From positions 186,001 to 250,000 of the forward strand of contig NZ_CANLVZ010000003.1 in assembly GCF_947494755.1 (NCBI RefSeq): a DNA stretch of 64,000 bases. The letters run 5' to 3'. The DNA comes from an uncultured Tateyamaria sp. GTDB lineage: Bacteria > Pseudomonadota > Alphaproteobacteria > Rhodobacterales > Rhodobacteraceae. A model generated the notes under the pieces. That model had not been told where the DNA came from, did not search any database, and saw only the letters and a program-made list of their open reading frames with translations. The position numbers and the translations under genes are program-made. This document shows, in pieces, positions 25,375 through 34,534 of this stretch. The stretch's first letter is position 1; every line of letters starts with the position of its first letter.

Positions 25375-26355
25375 ATGTCCAAGCTGGTCACTATTTATGG
25401 CGGGTCCGGGTTTGTCGGTCGGTATATCGCACGCCGCATGGCCAAAGCCGGTTGGCGCGTGCGTGTTGCTGTGCGTCGCCCGAACGAGGCGATCTTTGTC
25501 AAACCCTACGGCGTTGTCGGTCAGGTCGAGCCGGTCTTGTGCAACATCCGCGACGACACCTCTGTCGGGCAGGTGATGGCGGGCGCGGACGCAGTTGTAA
25601 ATTGTGTCGGTATTCTCGCGGCAAACGGCAAGAACACTTTTGAAGCTGTGCAGTCCGAAGGTGCTGGCCGCATCGCGCGCATTGCTGCGGCACAGGGCGT
25701 GTCAAAGATGGTACAAATCTCGGCCATCGGCGCGGATGTGGACAGCGAAAGTGACTATGCCCGCACCAAGGGTCTGGGCGAACAGGCGGTTCTGGAGCAT
25801 ATGCCGGACGCCGTGATCCTGCGGCCCTCAATTGTGTTTGGGGCCGAGGATGAGTTTTTCAATCGCTTCGCATCCATGACCCGGCTAGGTCCTGTGCTGC
25901 CCGTCGTTGGGGCCGATACGCTGTTTCAACCGGTCTATGTCGATGATGTGGCCAAGGCGGCTGAGCTGGCGTTGACCACTGACGTGACCCCGGGGATTTA
26001 CGAGCTTGGCGGACCGGACGTGCGCGATTTCCGGTCGTTGATGGCCACAATGCTGGACGTCATTCGCCGTCGCCGCATGGTGGTGAACATCCCGTTCCCG
26101 ATGGCTGCCTTGATGGGTTTTGGCTTTGATATGGCCAACACGCTGTCTCTCGGATTGGTACCGGCCCAGATCACGCGCGATCAGGTGCGCAACCTGCGCA
26201 ATGACAATGTCGTCGCGGAGGATGCGATGGGGTTTGCCGCGCTGGGCATTGAACCTGTGGCCCTTGAAACCGTGTTGCCAGACTATCTGTGGCGTTTCCG
26301 CCCGTCAGGTCAATACGACGCGATCAAGGAAAGTGCCAAGAACCTGAAGGCCTAG
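25375..26355 (+). CDS. NDUFA9-like NAD(P)-binding protein (complex I-associated family)
   Basis: 326 residues. An atypical SDR with a Rossmann motif at the very start (VTIYGGSGFVGRYIARRMAK) and LRPSIVFGAEDEFFNRFASM. Alphaproteobacterial members resemble mitochondrial complex I subunit NDUFA9, which binds NADPH structurally rather than catalysing a known reaction. No YxxxK dyad of a classical SDR is evident; ARTKGLGEQ replaces the usual YxxxK block. The GAGGAG site fixes the ATG at 25375. It ends 4 bases into the convergent uppP gene. Confidence 0.82.
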   Translation: MSKLVTIYGGSGFVGRYIARRMAKAGWRVRVAVRRPNEAIFVKPYGVVGQVEPVLCNIRDDTSVGQVMAGADAVVNCVGILAANGKNTFEAVQSEGAGRIARIAAAQGVSKMVQISAIGADVDSESDYARTKGLGEQAVLEHMPDAVILRPSIVFGAEDEFFNRFASMTRLGPVLPVVGADTLFQPVYVDDVAKAAELALTTDVTPGIYELGGPDVRDFRSLMATMLDVIRRRRMVVNIPFPMAALMGFGFDMANTLSLGLVPAQITRDQVRNLRNDNVVAEDAMGFAALGIEPVALETVLPDYLWRFRPSGQYDAIKESAKNLKA

Positions 26356-27155
26356 GTGTAGGCCCAGATCAACAGGCTCACCCCCAAGGCGATCCGGTAG
26401 ATCACGTAAGGTGTGAAGCTGACGCTGCGCAATAGACGCATCATAAGGGTCAGCGCCAAAAGTGCGGCGACAAATGCAAAGGCCGCCGCGACAGACGCAT
26501 CGCGCATCAACGCCCAGTTCGCGTCCCCGATGATGTCGAGGCTCAGCACGGCACCCGACGCGATGATCACCGGGATCGACATCAGCATCGCCAGTTTTGC
26601 CGCGTCTTCACGTGCGTATCCCAAGCGTCGTGCGGCCGTGATCGTGATGCCTGACCGCGAAGTACCGGGGATCAGCGCAAGGCATTGGGCCAGACCCATG
26701 AGGGCTGCGTCCTTCAACGTCCAACGCTCTGCGGTGCGGGTTGTGCCGCCGGTTCGGTCCGCCCAATAAAGCACGACGCCAAAGATCAGCATGGTCCAGC
26801 CGATCACAGCTACCGACCGCATCGTCTCATCCAGACCTGTCAGTTTGATGACAAGGCCAACCAAGACCGCCGGTATCGTCGCAATGATCAGGCACAGCGC
26901 GAGGAAGGCACCGGGCGTATCGATCCGCCCCTTGATCAGCCGGGTCAGGCCGATCGTCGCGATCCAGACGTCCTGGCGGAAATAGAGGATGACGGCCAGC
27001 AAAGTGCCGACATGCACCGCAACGTCAATGGCCAGCCCTTGATCTGGTGTACCCGTCAACGCAGGCAACAAGATGAGGTGGCCAGAAGATGAAACCGGGA
27101 GGAACTCGGTCACGCCTTGGATGATAGCCACAATCAAGAGTTGAAACAGAGTCAT
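26352..27155 (-). CDS. uppP: Undecaprenyl-diphosphatase UppP (BacA)
   Basis: 267 residues, multi-pass membrane protein. BacA motifs are present: QGVTEFLPVSSSGHLILLP and PGTSRSGITITAARRLG, with the catalytic glutamate and arginine. It dephosphorylates undecaprenyl pyrophosphate to recycle the lipid carrier for peptidoglycan and polysaccharide; MtgA and the polysaccharide block elsewhere in the window draw on the same carrier. The ATG at 27155 is chosen because homology starts there; an in-frame ATG exists at 27191. Confidence 0.93.
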   Translation of the reverse strand: MTLFQLLIVAIIQGVTEFLPVSSSGHLILLPALTGTPDQGLAIDVAVHVGTLLAVILYFRQDVWIATIGLTRLIKGRIDTPGAFLALCLIIATIPAVLVGLVIKLTGLDETMRSVAVIGWTMLIFGVVLYWADRTGGTTRTAERWTLKDAALMGLAQCLALIPGTSRSGITITAARRLGYAREDAAKLAMLMSIPVIIASGAVLSLDIIGDANWALMRDASVAAAFAFVAALLALTLMMRLLRSVSFTPYVIYRIALGVSLLIWAYT

Positions 27156-27296
27156 GGGGTCGGGCACCTTTGTGTTATACCTTTGGTACAAGTCTCTGAT
27201 TCTGGACGCAAACGCGCAAATGAATCCGATTCGGACCTAATAATCATGAATGAGTAGCGATCGCTGAGTAAAATCGGCAAAAAATGTTTGTGGTAT

Positions 27297-27311
27297 GTCA
27301 GCAATGCTGAC
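27297..27311 (+). promoter_or_regulatory. Palindrome GTCAG-N5-CTGAC upstream of gltD
   Basis: GTCAGCAATGCTGAC is a perfect inverted repeat with 6-base arms and a 3-base centre, 62 bases before the gltD ATG in the divergent uppP/gltD gap. A second copy of the same architecture precedes the GFA gene. The recognising regulator is unknown to me. Confidence 0.5.
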
Positions 27312-27373
27312 TTTTATTCCACCCAAGTTTGATTTACTCCCCGCGCACGACCTTTGACTGGCAGGAGCGGACT

Positions 27374-28810
27374 ATGGCTGAGCAACCGATGCTGAAATTT
27401 GTTAAGATCGAACGCGACATGCCTGAAAAGCGTGAAGCCGAAGTGCGCCGTGAAGACTTCAACGAGATCTACGCCGAATACGCTGACGCCAAAGCCAAAG
27501 AACAATCGAGCCGGTGTTCGCAATGCGGTGTGCCCTACTGTCAGTCCCACTGCCCGCTGCACAACAACATCCCCGACTGGCTGCGCCTGACCGCAGAAGG
27601 CCGTCTGCGCGAAGCCTATGAGGTGAGCCAGGCGACCAACACGTTCCCTGAAATCTGTGGCCGGATTTGCCCGCAGGATCGCCTGTGCGAAGGCAACTGC
27701 GTCATCGAATCCTCGGGCCATGGCACCGTCACCATCGGCTCGGTCGAAAAATACATCACCGACACAGCGTGGGAAAAAGGTTGGGTGATGTCCATCGCAC
27801 CAAGCACGGAACGTGCCGAGAGCGTCGGGATAATCGGTGCGGGGCCGGGTGGGCTGGCAGCGGCTGATGTTCTGCGCCGCGCAGGGGTGCAAGTCACCGT
27901 TTATGACCGTCATGATCGTGCTGGTGGTTTGCTGACCTACGGCATCCCGGGTTTCAAGCTGGAAAAGGACGTCGTGATGCGGCGCAATGAACAGCTTGAG
28001 AAGGGCGGCGTGACGTTCAAGCTGAACTGCGCCGTTGGTGAAGACATCTCGTTTGCGGATATTCACGCCGCCCACGACGCCGTCATCGTTGCGACCGGTG
28101 TGTACAAAAGCCGTGAGCTTTCCATGCCGAACGCCGAAGCCGCAGGTGTCGAGCGCGCTATTGATTTCCTTACTGTCAGCAATCGCAAGAGCTTTGGCGA
28201 CGCGGTAGACGATTTCGAGTCAGGCCGCATGAACGCCAAGGGCAAGCGCGTCGTCGTGATTGGTGGGGGCGACACAGCGATGGACTGCGTGCGCACGTCA
28301 ATCCGGCAGGGTGCCACTTCGGTGAAGTGTCTTTATCGTCGGGACCGCGCCAACATGCCCGGCAGTCAACGCGAAGTGCAAAACGCCGAAGAAGAAGGCG
28401 TAGTCTTCGAATGGCTGAGCGCGCCCAAAGGGTTCACCACCGATGGCGATTATGTGTCGGGTGTCATGGTCCAGAAAATGCGTCTGGGTGCCCCCGACGC
28501 AACTGGTCGCCAAGCCCCTGAGGTGATCGAGGGTGCGGATTACGTCGAAGAGGCCGATCTGGTGATCAAGGCGCTTGGCTTCGAACCCGAAGAATTGCCA
28601 ACCCTGTGGGACCAGCCAGAGCTTGAGGTGACCCGTTGGGGTACGGTCAAGGCCGAGTTCACGACAGGCAAGACGGCCATGCCTGGCGTCTACGCGGTGG
28701 GCGACATCGTGCGCGGCGCATCGCTGGTTGTGTGGGCCATCAAGGACGGGCGCGACTGCGCCGAGGCGATCCTTGAGCAGTTCGGTGCAGCCGCCATCGC
28801 GGCTGAATAA
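27374..28810 (+). CDS. gltD: Glutamate synthase small subunit (NADPH-dependent)
   Basis: 478 residues. The N-terminal cysteine-rich segment carries the two [4Fe-4S] sites (CSQCGVPYCQSHCP and CGRICPQDRLCEGNC). It is followed by FAD binding (IGAGPGGLAAADVLRRAG) and NADPH binding (VIGGGDTAMDC) Rossmann motifs. It passes electrons from NADPH to GltB for glutamate formation from glutamine and 2-oxoglutarate. The start follows GCAGGAG. gltB is 1.2 kb downstream with two other genes between. Confidence 0.94.
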   Translation: MAEQPMLKFVKIERDMPEKREAEVRREDFNEIYAEYADAKAKEQSSRCSQCGVPYCQSHCPLHNNIPDWLRLTAEGRLREAYEVSQATNTFPEICGRICPQDRLCEGNCVIESSGHGTVTIGSVEKYITDTAWEKGWVMSIAPSTERAESVGIIGAGPGGLAAADVLRRAGVQVTVYDRHDRAGGLLTYGIPGFKLEKDVVMRRNEQLEKGGVTFKLNCAVGEDISFADIHAAHDAVIVATGVYKSRELSMPNAEAAGVERAIDFLTVSNRKSFGDAVDDFESGRMNAKGKRVVVIGGGDTAMDCVRTSIRQGATSVKCLYRRDRANMPGSQREVQNAEEEGVVFEWLSAPKGFTTDGDYVSGVMVQKMRLGAPDATGRQAPEVIEGADYVEEADLVIKALGFEPEELPTLWDQPELEVTRWGTVKAEFTTGKTAMPGVYAVGDIVRGASLVVWAIKDGRDCAEAILEQFGAAAIAAE

Positions 28811-28834
28811 GCCGCCAGATTACCGTAGTAAAAC

Positions 28835-28849
28835 GTCAGTTATACTGAC
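28835..28849 (+). promoter_or_regulatory. Second GTCAG-N5-CTGAC palindrome, between gltD and the GFA gene
   Basis: GTCAGTTATACTGAC is a perfect inverted repeat with 6-base arms and a 3-base centre, 17 bases before the GFA start codon. It shares GTCAG/CTGAC and the spacing with the site at 27297. It could be an operator or, as RNA, a small hairpin near the ribosome site. Confidence 0.5.
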
Positions 28850-28866
28850 AAAAACGGAGAAGTGAG

Positions 28867-29304
28867 ATGGACAAGTCCGGAGGATGCCTGTGCCGCGCAG
28901 TGCGCTTTGATGCGCGCAACGTGCCGTCGACCTACGGCATCTGCCATTGTCCGTCATGTCGCCGGTGGACGGGGTCGGCCCTGCTTGAGGTCTCGGTCAA
29001 GACCGATGATCTGACATGGTACGGTGCCGAGCATATCGCGACCCGTAAAACGAGCGCCTGGGCCGAGCGCGCGTGGTGCCGGGAATGCGGCACGGCCCTC
29101 TATTTCCGCCAGACCAAGCCTGGGGAGTGGTTTGGGGGCACCGATTTGGCGTTGGGTCTGTTTGACGATCCAAACGGCTTTACCCTCACCCACGAGATTT
29201 TCGTGGATGAGATGCCGGACAGCTTTGCCTATGCGCATGGCGATCACAAACGACTGACCCGCGCGGATGTGGCGGTGCTGAACCCGGACATCAAGCCGAC
29301 ATGA
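28867..29304 (+). CDS. GFA / CENP-V domain protein
   Basis: 145 residues. The zinc-binding cysteine pattern of the GFA family is complete: GCLCRAV near residue 7, CHCPSCRRW near 27, and CRECGTALYF. The family is named after glutathione-dependent formaldehyde-activating enzyme, but most members have no proven activity. It is co-directional with gltD and gltB, and its stop overlaps the next start by 4 bases. Confidence 0.85.
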   Translation: MDKSGGCLCRAVRFDARNVPSTYGICHCPSCRRWTGSALLEVSVKTDDLTWYGAEHIATRKTSAWAERAWCRECGTALYFRQTKPGEWFGGTDLALGLFDDPNGFTLTHEIFVDEMPDSFAYAHGDHKRLTRADVAVLNPDIKPT

Positions 29305-30008
29305 TGCGCCTGATCTACATCATATTGGGCATCGTACCTTTGGCCGCTACGGCGCAGGACGGCGATCTGTACTATCCCCCGGCGGGCTGCACCGGCACGC
29401 TGACCGTGCAGTCGCGCAGTTGTATGGTGTCTCACATCTATACTTGTGCGGCGGATCAACCGGGCGAAAGCTGGCGCATTCAGTTCAACGCTGACGGGCC
29501 TAACTTCCTGTCCAAGATTGACGCGGAAACGCAATGGCTCGAAAGCTATGAGTTATTCCCGATCCGCCGCGAAGTCTTGCAACAACCCGCGCCTGATCCC
29601 GCCAGCCTGAGCGAGTTGCTCAGCACCGGCACCGACGCCTATGACTTTGTGCAGCGCAGCGAGACTGGTGTTGTGCGCGTCGTCGGCTTCGACAGGCTTA
29701 GCGGTAATGACGTGGTGATTGACGGCGAACCGCTGCTGGGCACTGAATTTTCGGCCCGGTACGAAGATACCAGCGGCACATATCTGGAGGTGTCGGGGGC
29801 CGAGTTCGTATCGGTCAAACACCGCCGGTTTGTGTCCGGTCTGGTGACCCAAAAGTGGACCCGCGACGGGGACACGATCGAGTGGGACCGCACCCCTGTC
29901 GACTTCATCTACCCCGGCGAGCCGGGATTTTTTTCCAAGACCCCTCTTTATGATTGCGAGGCCTCATTGGCCAGCTATCGCCCGAACGTGAAAGGATCTG
30001 ACCAATGA
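29301..30008 (+). CDS. Secreted protein of unknown function between gltD and gltB
   Basis: 235 residues. A signal peptide (MMRLIYIILGIVPLAATA, cleavage near 18) suggests a periplasmic location. The mature part is beta-rich, with cysteines at GCTGT, SCMVSH, YTCAAD and YDCEAS that could form two disulfides. I do not recognise a family. It overlaps the GFA gene by 4 bases and gltB by 4 bases (ATGA), so it is translated with them. A direct role in glutamate synthesis is unlikely given its export. Confidence 0.75.
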   Translation: MMRLIYIILGIVPLAATAQDGDLYYPPAGCTGTLTVQSRSCMVSHIYTCAADQPGESWRIQFNADGPNFLSKIDAETQWLESYELFPIRREVLQQPAPDPASLSELLSTGTDAYDFVQRSETGVVRVVGFDRLSGNDVVIDGEPLLGTEFSARYEDTSGTYLEVSGAEFVSVKHRRFVSGLVTQKWTRDGDTIEWDRTPVDFIYPGEPGFFSKTPLYDCEASLASYRPNVKGSDQ

Positions 30009-33000
30009 CCAAATATGACGCTAACTGGGTGGCCCGCGAGGAAGCCAAGCGCACGTTCATGGCCGAAAATGGTCTCTATTCCAAAGCCGAAGAGCATTCG
30101 TCTTGTGGTGTCGGCCTTGTTGTGTCGGTGGATGGTTCTAAAAGCCGGGCGGTGGTTGAAAACGGGATCAAGGCCCTGAAGGCGATCTGGCACCGGGGCG
30201 CTGTTGATGCGGACGGCAAGACGGGCGACGGCGCGGGCATCCACGTCCAGATCCCGTGTGAATTCTTCTATGATCAGATCGAGCGGACAGGCCACACGCC
30301 TAACCGCGAACAACTGATTGCGGTGGGTCAGGTCTTCCTGCCCCGCACCGACTTTGGCGCGCAGGAAACCTGTCGCACAATCGTGGAAACCGAAGTTCTG
30401 CGCATGGGCTATTACATCTACGGCTGGCGGCATGTGCCGGTCAAAATCGCCTGCCTTGGTGAAAAGGCCAACGCGACCCGTCCCGAGATCGAGCAAATCC
30501 TGATTTCCAACTCCAAAGGTGTGGATGAGGAAACATTTGAGCGTGAACTGTACGTGATCCGTCGTCGTATCGAAAAGGCGGCATTGGCGGCTCAGGTGCC
30601 TGCCCTTTATATCGCGTCGCTGTCGTGCCGATCGATCATCTACAAGGGTATGATGCTGGCCGAGCAGGTTGCCGAATTCTATCCCGACCTGATGGACGAA
30701 CGGTTCGAAAGTGCCTTTGCGATCTATCACCAGCGCTATTCCACCAACACTTTCCCTCAGTGGTGGTTGGCCCAGCCCTTCCGCATGTTGGCCCATAACG
30801 GTGAGATCAACACGCTCAAGGGCAACCTCAACTGGATGAAAAGCCACGAGATCCGGATGGCCTCGGGTGCGTTCGGTGAGATGGCTGAAGATATCAAACC
30901 CATCGTTGCCAATGGGTCATCTGACTCTGCCGCGTTGGATGCGGTGTTCGAGGTGTTGGTGCGTGCGGGGCGGAATGCGCCGATGGCGAAGACGATGCTG
31001 GTGCCCGAGTCGTGGTCGAAGCAAGCGGTCGAACTGCCACAGGCGTGGCGCGATATGTATTCCTATTGCAACTCGGTGATGGAGCCGTGGGACGGCCCCG
31101 CCGCGCTCGCGATGACCGATGGGCGTTGGGTCTGTGCCGGACTTGATCGGAACGGGCTGCGCCCGATGCGCTATGTCGTGACGCGCGACGGGATGGTGAT
31201 TGCCGGGTCTGAGACCGGCATGGTCCCGCTGAACGAAGCCAATGTGATCGAAAAGGGCGCGCTTGGCCCCGGCCAGATTCTGGCCGTCGATATGCAAGAG
31301 GGCAAACTTTACCACGACACCGAGATCAAGGATCAACTGGCCGCCAGCCAGCCCTTCGGCGACTGGGTGGGCAAGATCAAGGACCTTGAATCCGAACTAT
31401 CGGGCGTGACCGAAACCGCCCTGTTTGAGGGCGATGAATTGCGCCGCCGTCAGATCGCGGCTGGCTATACCATCGAAGAGCTGGAAAGTATCCTCGCCCC
31501 AATGGCCGAGGATGGCAAAGAGGCGCTCGCCTCGATGGGCGACGATACCCCCTCGGCGGTTTTGTCCAAGAAGTATCGGCCCTTGTCACACTTTTTCCGC
31601 CAAAACTTTTCTCAGGTCACAAACCCGCCCATCGACAGCTTGCGCGAGTTCCGGGTGATGAGCCTCAAGACCCGGTTCGGCAACCTCAAGAACGTGCTGG
31701 ATGAAAGCAGCAGCCAGACCGAGATCATCACGCTCGACAGTCCCTTCGTGGGCAACGCGCATTGGGCCGACATCACGACGCACTTCAACGCCGATCTGGT
31801 CGAAATTGACTGTACGTTTGAGGCAGGACGGGGCGCGTTGAGCGCCGGTTTGGCCCGTATCAGAGCCGAAGCAGAGGATGCCGTGCGCTCGGGCTCGGGT
31901 CATATCGTGCTGACGGACCAGCACTCAAACGCCGACAAGATTGCGATGCCGATGATCCTCGCGACCTCGGCAGTGCACGGCCATTTGACCCGCAAGGGGT
32001 TGCGCACGTTCTGCTCGCTCAACGTCCGCTCGGCGGAGTGTATCGATCCGCATTACTTTGCCGTTTTGATCGGCTGCGGTGCCACGGTCGTGAATGCCTA
32101 TCTGGCCGAGGATTCTCTGGCAGACCGCATTGATCGCGGTCTGATCGACGGGACGCTGACTGAAGCCGTTGCGCGCTATCGCAATGCCATCGACCAGGGG
32201 CTGCTCAAGATCATGGCCAAGATGGGGATTTCGGTCGTGTCGTCCTATCGCGGGGGGCTGAATTTCGAGGCTGTTGGCCTCAGCCGCGCGATGTGTGCGG
32301 AATACTTCCCCGGCATGACCAGCCGCATCAGCGGCATCGGCGTCACTGGCATCCAGACCAAGGCCGAAGAGGTGCACGCGATGGGCTGGGGCGGCACCAA
32401 CGTGCTGCCCATCGGCGGATTCTACAAAGCGCGCAAGTCGGGTGAGACGCATGCGTGGGAAGCGACCTCGATGCACATGATGCAGACCGCCTGCAACAAA
32501 GCGTCCTACGAGATGTGGAAGCAGTATTCGGCCAAGATGCGGTCGGGCCCACCGATTCATTTGCGGGACTTGATGGATATTAAGCCCTTGGGGAAACCCG
32601 TTCCCCTGGACGAAGTCGAGAGCATCACGTCGATCCGTAAACGCTTTGTGACGCCGGGCATGTCGCTTGGCGCGTTGTCGCCCGAGGCGCACAAGACACT
32701 GAACGTGGCGATGAACCGGATCGGCGCGAAGTCCGACAGCGGCGAGGGCGGCGAGGACCCCGCACACTTCCACCCCGAACCCAACGGCGACAACCCATCC
32801 GCCAAGATCAAACAGGTGGCGTCGGGCCGGTTCGGTGTCACCGCCGAATACCTGAACCAGTGTGAAGAGCTCGAGATCAAGGTCGCCCAAGGTGCCAAGC
32901 CGGGCGAAGGTGGGCAGCTGCCGGGGATGAAGGTCACCGACCTGATTGCCCGTTTGCGCCACTCGACCAAGGGTGTCACACTGATCTCGCCGCCGCCGCA

Positions 33001-34534
33001 CCACGACATCTATTCCATCGAGGACTTGGCGCAGCTGATCTATGACCTCAAGCAGATCAACCCGCGCTGCAAGGTGACGGTCAAATTGGTGGCATCCTCA
33101 GGCGTAGGCACGATTGCAGCGGGTGTGGCCAAGGCCAAGGCGGATGTGATCCTGATCTCCGGGCACAATGGCGGCACGGGGGCTTCGCCCGCGACCTCGA
33201 TCAAATATGCAGGTCTGCCTTGGGAAATGGGTTTGACCGAAGCGCATCAGGTGCTGTCCATGAACAACCTGCGCGGTCGCGTCACCCTGCGCACCGATGG
33301 CGGGTTACGCACGGGGCGTGATATCGTAATGGCCGCGATGCTGGGGGCCGAGGAATACGGCATCGGCACCGCCGCGCTGATCGCAATGGGTTGCATCATG
33401 GTGCGCCAGTGCCAGTCCAACACCTGCCCGGTGGGTGTGTGTACTCAGGACGAAGCGTTGCGCGATAAGTTCACCGGCAATGCGGACAAGGTCGTGAATC
33501 TGATCACGTTCTATGCCCAGGAAGTGCGTGAGCTGCTGGCCTCGATCGGGGCGCGCAGCATGGATGACGTTATCGGGCGCGCCGATCTTCTGGCGCAGGT
33601 CTCGCGCGGGTCCGCGCACCTCGATGACCTTGATCTCAACCCGATGCTGATCACCGTCGATGGCGCGGCGGACATCGTCTATAACCGCGACAAGGAGCGG
33701 AACGCCGTGCCCGACACGCTTGATGCGCAGATCGTGCGCGATGCGGCGCGGTTCCTGCAGGACGGTGAAAAGATGCAACTGTCTTACGCGGTGCAGAATA
33801 CGCATCGGACAGTCGGCACGCGCACGTCGAGCCACATCGTGCGCCAGTTCGGGATGCGCAATACACTGCAACCCGATCACCTGACCGTCAAGCTGACCGG
33901 GTCGGCGGGGCAATCACTGGGGGCATTTGCGGCACCGGGGTTGAAACTGGAAGTATCGGGCGATGCCAACGACTACGTGGGCAAGGGGTTGTCGGGCGGC
34001 ACCATCGTCGTGCGCCCGCCCATGTCGTCGCCCATCGTTGCCTCGGAAAACACCATCATCGGAAACACGGTGCTTTATGGTGCGACGGACGGGTTCCTGT
34101 TTGCGGCCGGGCGTGCGGGTGAACGCTTTGCCGTGCGCAACAGCGGGGCGCATGTGGTGATCGAAGGCTGCGGATCGAACGGGTGCGAATACATGACCGG
34201 CGGCGTCGCCGTGATCTTGGGCGAGATCGGCGCGAATTTCGGTGCCGGCATGACGGGCGGCATGGCGTATCTTTATGACCCCGATGGCAAGGCCGAAGCG
34301 TTGATGAACATGGAAACGCTTGTGACCTGCCCGGTGACGGTCAATCACTGGATGAGCCAGCTTGAAGAACTGCTGGAGCGGCATCTGCGTGAAACCGGCA
34401 GTGTCAAAACTGCCGATATCCTTCAGCATTGGGACACGGAGCAGCAGAATTTTCTGCAAGTGTGCCCGAAGGAAATGCTGGTGCATTTGCCTGCCCCACT
34501 CAGCCACGAAGCGGGTGCGATCCCGGCCGAGTGA
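30005..34534 (+). CDS. gltB: Glutamate synthase large subunit
   Basis: 1509 residues. Removal of a 33-residue propeptide would expose the catalytic cysteine of the Ntn-type glutaminase domain (SSCGVGLVVS). The central domain is followed by the FMN-binding synthase barrel (about 830-1200), with the [3Fe-4S] cysteines in RQCQSNTCPVGVC. The C-terminal GXGXG beta-helix domain is visible as repeated glycine-rich strands. It makes two glutamates from glutamine and 2-oxoglutarate with electrons from GltD. Length and motifs are normal. Confidence 0.96.
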   Translation: MTKYDANWVAREEAKRTFMAENGLYSKAEEHSSCGVGLVVSVDGSKSRAVVENGIKALKAIWHRGAVDADGKTGDGAGIHVQIPCEFFYDQIERTGHTPNREQLIAVGQVFLPRTDFGAQETCRTIVETEVLRMGYYIYGWRHVPVKIACLGEKANATRPEIEQILISNSKGVDEETFERELYVIRRRIEKAALAAQVPALYIASLSCRSIIYKGMMLAEQVAEFYPDLMDERFESAFAIYHQRYSTNTFPQWWLAQPFRMLAHNGEINTLKGNLNWMKSHEIRMASGAFGEMAEDIKPIVANGSSDSAALDAVFEVLVRAGRNAPMAKTMLVPESWSKQAVELPQAWRDMYSYCNSVMEPWDGPAALAMTDGRWVCAGLDRNGLRPMRYVVTRDGMVIAGSETGMVPLNEANVIEKGALGPGQILAVDMQEGKLYHDTEIKDQLAASQPFGDWVGKIKDLESELSGVTETALFEGDELRRRQIAAGYTIEELESILAPMAEDGKEALASMGDDTPSAVLSKKYRPLSHFFRQNFSQVTNPPIDSLREFRVMSLKTRFGNLKNVLDESSSQTEIITLDSPFVGNAHWADITTHFNADLVEIDCTFEAGRGALSAGLARIRAEAEDAVRSGSGHIVLTDQHSNADKIAMPMILATSAVHGHLTRKGLRTFCSLNVRSAECIDPHYFAVLIGCGATVVNAYLAEDSLADRIDRGLIDGTLTEAVARYRNAIDQGLLKIMAKMGISVVSSYRGGLNFEAVGLSRAMCAEYFPGMTSRISGIGVTGIQTKAEEVHAMGWGGTNVLPIGGFYKARKSGETHAWEATSMHMMQTACNKASYEMWKQYSAKMRSGPPIHLRDLMDIKPLGKPVPLDEVESITSIRKRFVTPGMSLGALSPEAHKTLNVAMNRIGAKSDSGEGGEDPAHFHPEPNGDNPSAKIKQVASGRFGVTAEYLNQCEELEIKVAQGAKPGEGGQLPGMKVTDLIARLRHSTKGVTLISPPPHHDIYSIEDLAQLIYDLKQINPRCKVTVKLVASSGVGTIAAGVAKAKADVILISGHNGGTGASPATSIKYAGLPWEMGLTEAHQVLSMNNLRGRVTLRTDGGLRTGRDIVMAAMLGAEEYGIGTAALIAMGCIMVRQCQSNTCPVGVCTQDEALRDKFTGNADKVVNLITFYAQEVRELLASIGARSMDDVIGRADLLAQVSRGSAHLDDLDLNPMLITVDGAADIVYNRDKERNAVPDTLDAQIVRDAARFLQDGEKMQLSYAVQNTHRTVGTRTSSHIVRQFGMRNTLQPDHLTVKLTGSAGQSLGAFAAPGLKLEVSGDANDYVGKGLSGGTIVVRPPMSSPIVASENTIIGNTVLYGATDGFLFAAGRAGERFAVRNSGAHVVIEGCGSNGCEYMTGGVAVILGEIGANFGAGMTGGMAYLYDPDGKAEALMNMETLVTCPVTVNHWMSQLEELLERHLRETGSVKTADILQHWDTEQQNFLQVCPKEMLVHLPAPLSHEAGAIPAE

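Follow-up and report, generated by a model that had tools for sequence, protein, structure and literature searches.

Our analysis of a 64 000-nucleotide stretch of DNA (the window) suggests that two matching palindromes in its glt locus probably serve a single DNA-binding regulator as operators, and that this regulator is most likely a MarR-family protein encoded divergently from ilvE. We take this protein to be PetP and its partner, an OmpR-type response regulator, to be PetR. By computation, a palindrome of about 23 bp was found to recur at petP/ilvE, before gltD, in the gap behind gltD and before iorAB, and it tends to co-occur with PetP. A sequence-only reading of the window had suggested that a single regulator acts both at the start of the glt operon and within it; the frequency and conservation of the motif support this proposal, with a single binder as the probable common cause. 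That reading could match the palindromes to no named factor, whereas the distribution and placement of the sites now favour a member of the MarR family. Further copies of the element, unseen in that reading, occur at ilvE/petP and iorAB, and another palindrome precedes the gltD site by 74 bp.

The palindromes of the glt locus

The first palindrome, GTCAGCAATGCTGAC, lies at 27297–27311 and the second, GTCAGTTATACTGAC, at 28835–28849, exactly as first described, and each consists of perfect 6-base arms around a 3-base centre. The distances given for them were likewise correct, with 62 bases separating the first from the ATG of gltD (27374) and 17 bases separating the second from the ATG of a gene for a GFA-family protein (28867). 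Both form the cores of a palindrome of about 23 bp, ATAGGTCAG-N5-CTGACCTAT, so that the putative gltD-proximal operator spans 27293–27315 and the putative internal operator, in the gap between gltD and the GFA gene, spans 28831–28853, with no strand assigned to either. The genes around them are gltD, encoding the small subunit of glutamate synthase (27374–28810, + strand; Fer4_20 and Pyr_redox_2 domains), the GFA gene behind the internal operator (28867–29304, + strand; PF04828, E 2.5e-19), a gene for a 235-aa protein with no Pfam match at E≤0.001 (29301–30008, + strand) and gltB, the reading frame of the large subunit (30005–34534, + strand), which was named by sequence and position. The start of the 235-aa gene overlaps the stop of the GFA gene, and its end overlaps the start of gltB. 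Used as a query, GltB was found adjoining gltD in most loci of the class. The bacA/uppP gene (26355–27155, − strand; BacA, E 9.4e-72) is divergent from gltD.

Exact matches to GTCAG-N5-CTGAC in the window were confined to these two, in agreement with the sequence-only reading, which had seen no third copy. This compares with 0.03 expected, and none of 100 shuffles contained two or more; when up to one mismatch was allowed, 7 matches were found against 1.67 expected, and none of 100 shuffles reached 7. The genome to which the window belongs (4.1 Mb, 60 contigs) holds 6 exact copies against 2 for a reversed control pattern, and the motif thus stands above background in both the window and the genome. 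All of the other four exact copies lie in stop-free frames (152, 177, 537 and 499 codons) and are poor fits to the motif, with scores of 3.7, 2.6, 10.0 and 6.6, respectively, on a matrix built from gltD and internal sites. With the same matrix the proximal palindrome ranked first in the window (30.8) and the internal palindrome second (22.4), although both are among its training sites. A matrix built from petP operators only gave the same first and second ranks, at 30.6 and 23.1, with the next-best score in the window at 9.3. This reciprocal test is only partly independent, since its petP sites were chosen with the gltD matrix.

Conservation before and behind gltD

A scan of relatives, which the sequence-only reading had called for, revealed that the palindrome upstream of gltD is kept. 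GltD matches were present in 45 of 61 genomes, and 44 loci (L007–L050) were read, a GltD fragment in G039 being left out; a palindrome of the ATAGGTCAG-N5-CTGACCTAT type was recognisable before gltD in 43 of them. A hand score with a maximum of 21 placed the best upstream match of each of these 43 loci between 14.5 and 19.5 and that of the remaining locus, L050, at 12.5. Since second-best background matches come to about 14 to 15, score alone does not clearly establish the weakest of the 43 sites, which are mostly in other families. The stricter matrix from petP operators only placed 31 of the 44 upstream regions at 14 bits or more and 38 at 10 or more; within the family of the window's own genome, 29 of 37 reached 14.

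Sites behind gltD were found in 23 of 43 loci with a loose hand cut. By eye, ten of these precede the start of a GFA gene, and elsewhere another gene start follows. Seven loci (L009, L012, L014, L017, L018, L020 and L023) were also seen by eye to carry, from the stop codon of gltD up to the internal operator, short repeats such as CTGCGTGTTT or CGTACAGTTT.

A further, gltD-distal palindrome, TCCGATTCGGA (27217–27243, centre 27230, no strand assigned), sits between bacA/uppP and gltD, 74 bp upstream of the proximal centre. Averaged over 37 family loci, palindromy was 7.08 of 11 pairs at the proximal centre and the next peak, 5.22 of 11, fell at −74 (mean over offsets 2.83, sd 0.54); in one of these loci, L033, the distal site served as the anchor. 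The distal peak lies between −73 and −75 in single loci, and some loci show no clear distal palindrome. Within the genus of the window the distal core is mostly GTCCG-N3-CGGAC-like, with a low score on the motif matrix, and in several other genera it is nearer to the proximal motif, for example GGTAACTATTCCTGACC in L035.

PetP and the proposed operator at its own gene

In the genome of the window, petP lies on the same contig (C3:251927–252433), about 1.9 kb past the window's right end. The gene product matches MarR_2 (Pfam, E 8.3e-12), with weak PDB matches to MarR proteins, and its neighbour matches Response_reg and Trans_reg_C. When tested for family membership, PetP showed the winged helix of MarR proteins, its recognition helix being conserved, and the string KQSL.RVL was invariant in 18 PetP sequences with identities down to 37 %. 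A mixed set of 47 petP loci gave a petR match in 44, so that the MarR gene there has a gene for an OmpR-type response regulator close by.

Operators at petP were scored with a matrix that contained no petP sites, in three sets of loci that overlap in some genomes. The mixed set gave a site of at least 14 in 43 of the 47 loci, the other four being L230 (9.6), L237 (5.2), L238 (12.0) and L241 (1.8). All 80 named Roseobacter-group petP loci, the best 80 of at least 572, scored at least 14.8, with 78 at 15 or more, and no other position in these loci reached 15. All 30 petP loci drawn from the class reached 14; these were the best-scoring among 110 PetP-bearing genomes, and 4 of them are in the window's own family. 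The operator was centred on the petP ATG in 18 of the 30, as in GTCAACATGGCTGAC, so that the first three codons also serve as the right half-site. Nearly all start-centred operators (L326–L350) read ATGGCTGAC or ATGACTGAC in the right half, and ATGGCTGAC provides the codons for Met-Ala-Asp and a half-site at once. With the operator on the start codon and its right half nearly fixed, the operator and the N-terminus of the protein constrain each other.

Position alone hardly tells petP and ilvE apart as the gene to which the operator belongs, since the two are neighbours in all 47 loci of the mixed set. The case for petP comes from the start-codon sites and from one decoupled locus, L335, where ilvE was not found beside petP and the operator is still present. 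At L335 an exonuclease-family gene and a GFA gene (L335:904–1353) stand before petP, the GFA gene directly; the GFA gene of the window follows gltD behind the same operator.

PetP distribution and the gltD site

The gltD site tends to occur together with PetP. PetP was found in 47 of the 61 genomes, including all 43 with a gltD site and G045; it is absent from G046, the only PetP-less genome among the 61 with a full GltD, and gltD has no site there. A class sample of 193 genomes contained GltD in 86, PetP in 110 and both in 75, and the comparison of PetP with the gltD site was made in 59 genomes of the class. At a cut-off of 14, which was our choice, a gltD site was present in 32 of 48 genomes with PetP and in none of the 11 without it (one-sided Fisher p 4.7e-5, ancestry ignored), leaving 16 of the 48 PetP-positive genomes without a site at this level. 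With ancestry again ignored, the counts were 36/48 against 2/11 at a cut-off of 10 (p 0.0008), 35/48 against 1/11 at 12 (p 0.00015) and 26/48 against 0/11 at 16 (p 0.0007).

Other sites and the predicted regulon

The predicted regulon in relatives is small, comprising gltD and the gene that follows it, iorAB, and the gap between ilvE and petP. A sequence-only model (R1) was run in 41 genomes, and contexts were read for 15 loci and for 40 hand-chosen hits. Thirteen of the 40 hits lay before iorAB, 8 between petP (the MarR gene) and ilvE, and a single one before gltB (L101, in another family); the remaining 18 were at non-recurring places, several of them within genes. The 15 loci added further iorAB sites (L063, L073 and L074), a gap between ilvE and a MarR gene in another family (L075) and a site at gltB (L078). 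None of the gltB upstream regions in the class sample reached 14.

In the window's own genome, R1 failed to pick up two sites, the one before iorAB and the internal one, and matrix scans recovered both. The copy before iorAB, ACAGGTCAGTCTTTGTGACCTAT (L137:2500–2522), is less exact than the glt palindromes, as is the copy in the petP–ilvE gap, TTAAGTCAGCCTTGTTGACATTC (L203:2047–2069), which lies just outside the window on contig C3 near 252474. The gene assignments were supported by NCBIfam PRK13029 for the iorAB fragment (E 9e-193, under the whole-protein cut-off because the query is a fragment) and by PRK07544 for ilvE, above its cut-off.

Two further contexts were encountered. Good operator copies at L059:1499–1521 and L053:1499–1521 (26.2 and 19.6 bits) precede, respectively, the gene of a type IV secretion coupling protein in the closest relative and, in the window's own genome, a gene that looks similar, the protein having been scanned for the relative's gene only; they possibly mark a mobile element linked to this regulator. 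In one relative, an operator copy stands before a gene for a YitT membrane protein, which is followed by an Lrp-family gene (L065:106–1490).

Alternative binders and readings

Among the competitors the strongest is the class-wide Lrp (L155), of the Lrp/AsnC family, which we consider an unlikely binder. Sites of this family are often 15-bp palindromes in phased sets, and the two palindromes at fixed spacing before gltD, together with the glt, ilv and amino-acid oxidoreductase targets, resemble what is generally known of the Escherichia coli Lrp regulon. Conservation of the protein itself is strong, with matches at E≤1e-30 in 50 of 61 genomes, G045 and G048 among them; the protein matches E. coli Lrp (2gqq, E 1.4e-31), and in L065 one operator copy precedes the YitT–Lrp gene pair. 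However, the operator stands on petP rather than on lrp: loci L164–L173 carry the Lrp gene with no site nearby (best 11.6, others ≤9.6). The Lrp ortholog is also absent from G033 (98 % complete, 4 % contamination), where the best match has E 1.5e-19 and 31 % identity and which has both gltD and petP sites. One gene missing from one draft genome is thin evidence; G027, 82 % complete, also lacks a close Lrp ortholog (best match 44 %), and its glt site is weak. Lrp was rejected on these two grounds, that it is not present wherever the site occurs and that lrp has no site.

A LysR-type regulator encoded beside iorAB, which we take to be LsrB/VtlR-like and whose best solved relative is a LysR protein (9hh1), is a good deal less probable. 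The palindrome can be read as T-N11-A and lies in the divergent gap, and a site of at least 14 was found in 27 of 30 LysR loci read, drawn from the 46 of 61 genomes with a match. T-N11-A sites occur with other regulator families too, and the site appears to track iorAB rather than the LysR gene: it stays with iorAB where a gene intervenes (L139 and L141) and is missing from L151 and L152, where no iorAB is adjacent. This argument is weakened by L142 and L185, which have iorAB without a site. The LysR ortholog is also absent from G045 and G048 (best identities 30 % and 26 %), both of which have glt sites (L101; L364, 19.8), and the LysR protein was rejected on the tracking of iorAB and on these two genomes. 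Lrp and LysR were profiled in the 61-genome set, in which PetP is present in G033 as well as in G045 and G048; as judged from these distributions, both appear to fit less well than PetP.

Still less credible is the reading in which the palindromes act as RNA, forming hairpins or intrinsic terminators with a 6–7-bp stem, a 3-base loop and a T-rich tail. Both were indeed called terminator-like (27297–27311 on the + strand and 28850–28834 on the − strand), with 4 such calls found against 2.6 expected, and all five core pairs are kept in 16 of 23 internal sites. At gltD, however, all five are kept in just 12 of 43 sites (14 with G-U pairs), and the other 31 break at least one, most stems being broken by one-sided base changes. 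Within the window no + strand gene reads into the gltD site, as uppP is divergent, and the same element straddles petP start codons. No Rfam match reached gathering strength, two snoRNA matches being far below it and away from the palindromes. The terminator or RNA hairpin was rejected on the unconserved arm pairing at gltD and the Rfam result.

That two unrelated short palindromes arose by chance can be practically discounted: the other four exact copies in long reading frames and the two occurrences of the reversed control pattern speak for it, but the window expectation of 0.03, the genome scan, the poor motif scores of those other copies, the conservation of the motif across genera and families and the top ranks of both glt palindromes with the petP-operator matrix led us to reject it.

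Proposed mechanism

With PetP as the probable regulator, a dimer would bind each palindrome, and PetP would repress petP by covering its start region. Before gltD, two dimers on one face of the DNA (74 bp, about 7 turns) may act jointly, and the internal copy would provide a second control point for the later genes of the operon. All the targets (glutamate synthase, branched-chain aminotransferase and indolepyruvate oxidoreductase) handle glutamate or 2-oxo acids, and we therefore guess that PetP might be released by a 2-oxo-acid or amino-acid signal. Repression is the default of the MarR family and is adopted here as that default, not as a finding, since no −10 box above background follows the site: the mean match after the gltD site was 2.70 in 37 loci, against a null of 2.46 (sd 0.57). 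Promoter prediction gave no promoter-like site. We also considered the right arm (CTGACT) as a −35 box, suggested by TATCAT 17 bases further on in L009 and L012, and dropped it with the −10 match at background in the 37 loci.

We are evenly divided over a broader proposal, in which PetP, class-wide in the alphaproteobacteria, would regulate its own gene and act as a switch of glutamate synthase, of branched-chain transamination and of the oxidation of aryl 2-oxo acids, with its operator in its own first codons in many families and two gltD palindromes about 74 bp apart.

Comparison with known systems

MarR-family autoregulators are winged-helix proteins with a palindromic operator in the gap to a divergent gene or over their own start, and the same site elsewhere. 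PetP resembles them in its winged helix and in an operator that lies in a divergent gap or over its own start and at other genes. It differs from typical members in its targets, which are core nitrogen and 2-oxo-acid genes, in the operator GTCAG-N5-CTGAC and in the paired gltD palindromes about 74 bp apart. The E. coli Lrp regulon of gltBDF and ilv, as generally known, has similar target functions and several phased sites before gltB/D; Lrp belongs to another protein family, however, and the distribution and location of the sites favour the MarR protein.

In the passages available, PetP and PetR of Rhodobacter capsulatus are cited as needed for photosynthetic and respiratory growth (PMC3616918, PMC9603854), and PetR, located upstream of the cytochrome bc1 operon, is described as required for expression of that operon (PMC9603854). 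As in that system, the MarR gene in our loci has a gene for an OmpR-type response regulator in its neighbourhood, and orthology to R. capsulatus PetP is presumed from family and neighbour. The R. capsulatus passages name no DNA site or regulon, and no bc1 gene was noticed adjoining the operator sites that we inspected. NtrC sites are in general GCAC-type dyads that accompany a sigma-54 promoter. Control of gltBD by NtrC in some alphaproteobacteria, and taxon-specific control by ArgR, are described in a source whose consulted parts do not mention the GTCAG-N5-CTGAC motif (PMC5343134). Cyanobacterial PetR/PetP, a CopY-type repressor and a BlaR-type protease according to the part consulted (PMC10141476), appear to share only the name, as protein families and function differ. 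The available main text of an LsrB paper (PMC11975290) is without the words 'motif', 'gltB' and 'indolepyruvate', and the open-licence PMC literature, as far as its texts were accessible, held no recognisable description of the motif or of a PetP regulon. A MarR regulator with palindromic operators is of a familiar kind; within this limited literature search, both the regulon and the placing of the operator on the start codon appear new.

In summary, for the question of how alphaproteobacteria control glutamate synthase, our study offers a DNA motif together with a protein candidate and a few testable target genes. An operator within the N-terminal coding sequence of its own regulator, in many families, is an unusual constraint. 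If the proposal is true, the petP–petR pair, reported as needed for growth of R. capsulatus, would be tied to nitrogen and 2-oxo-acid metabolism.
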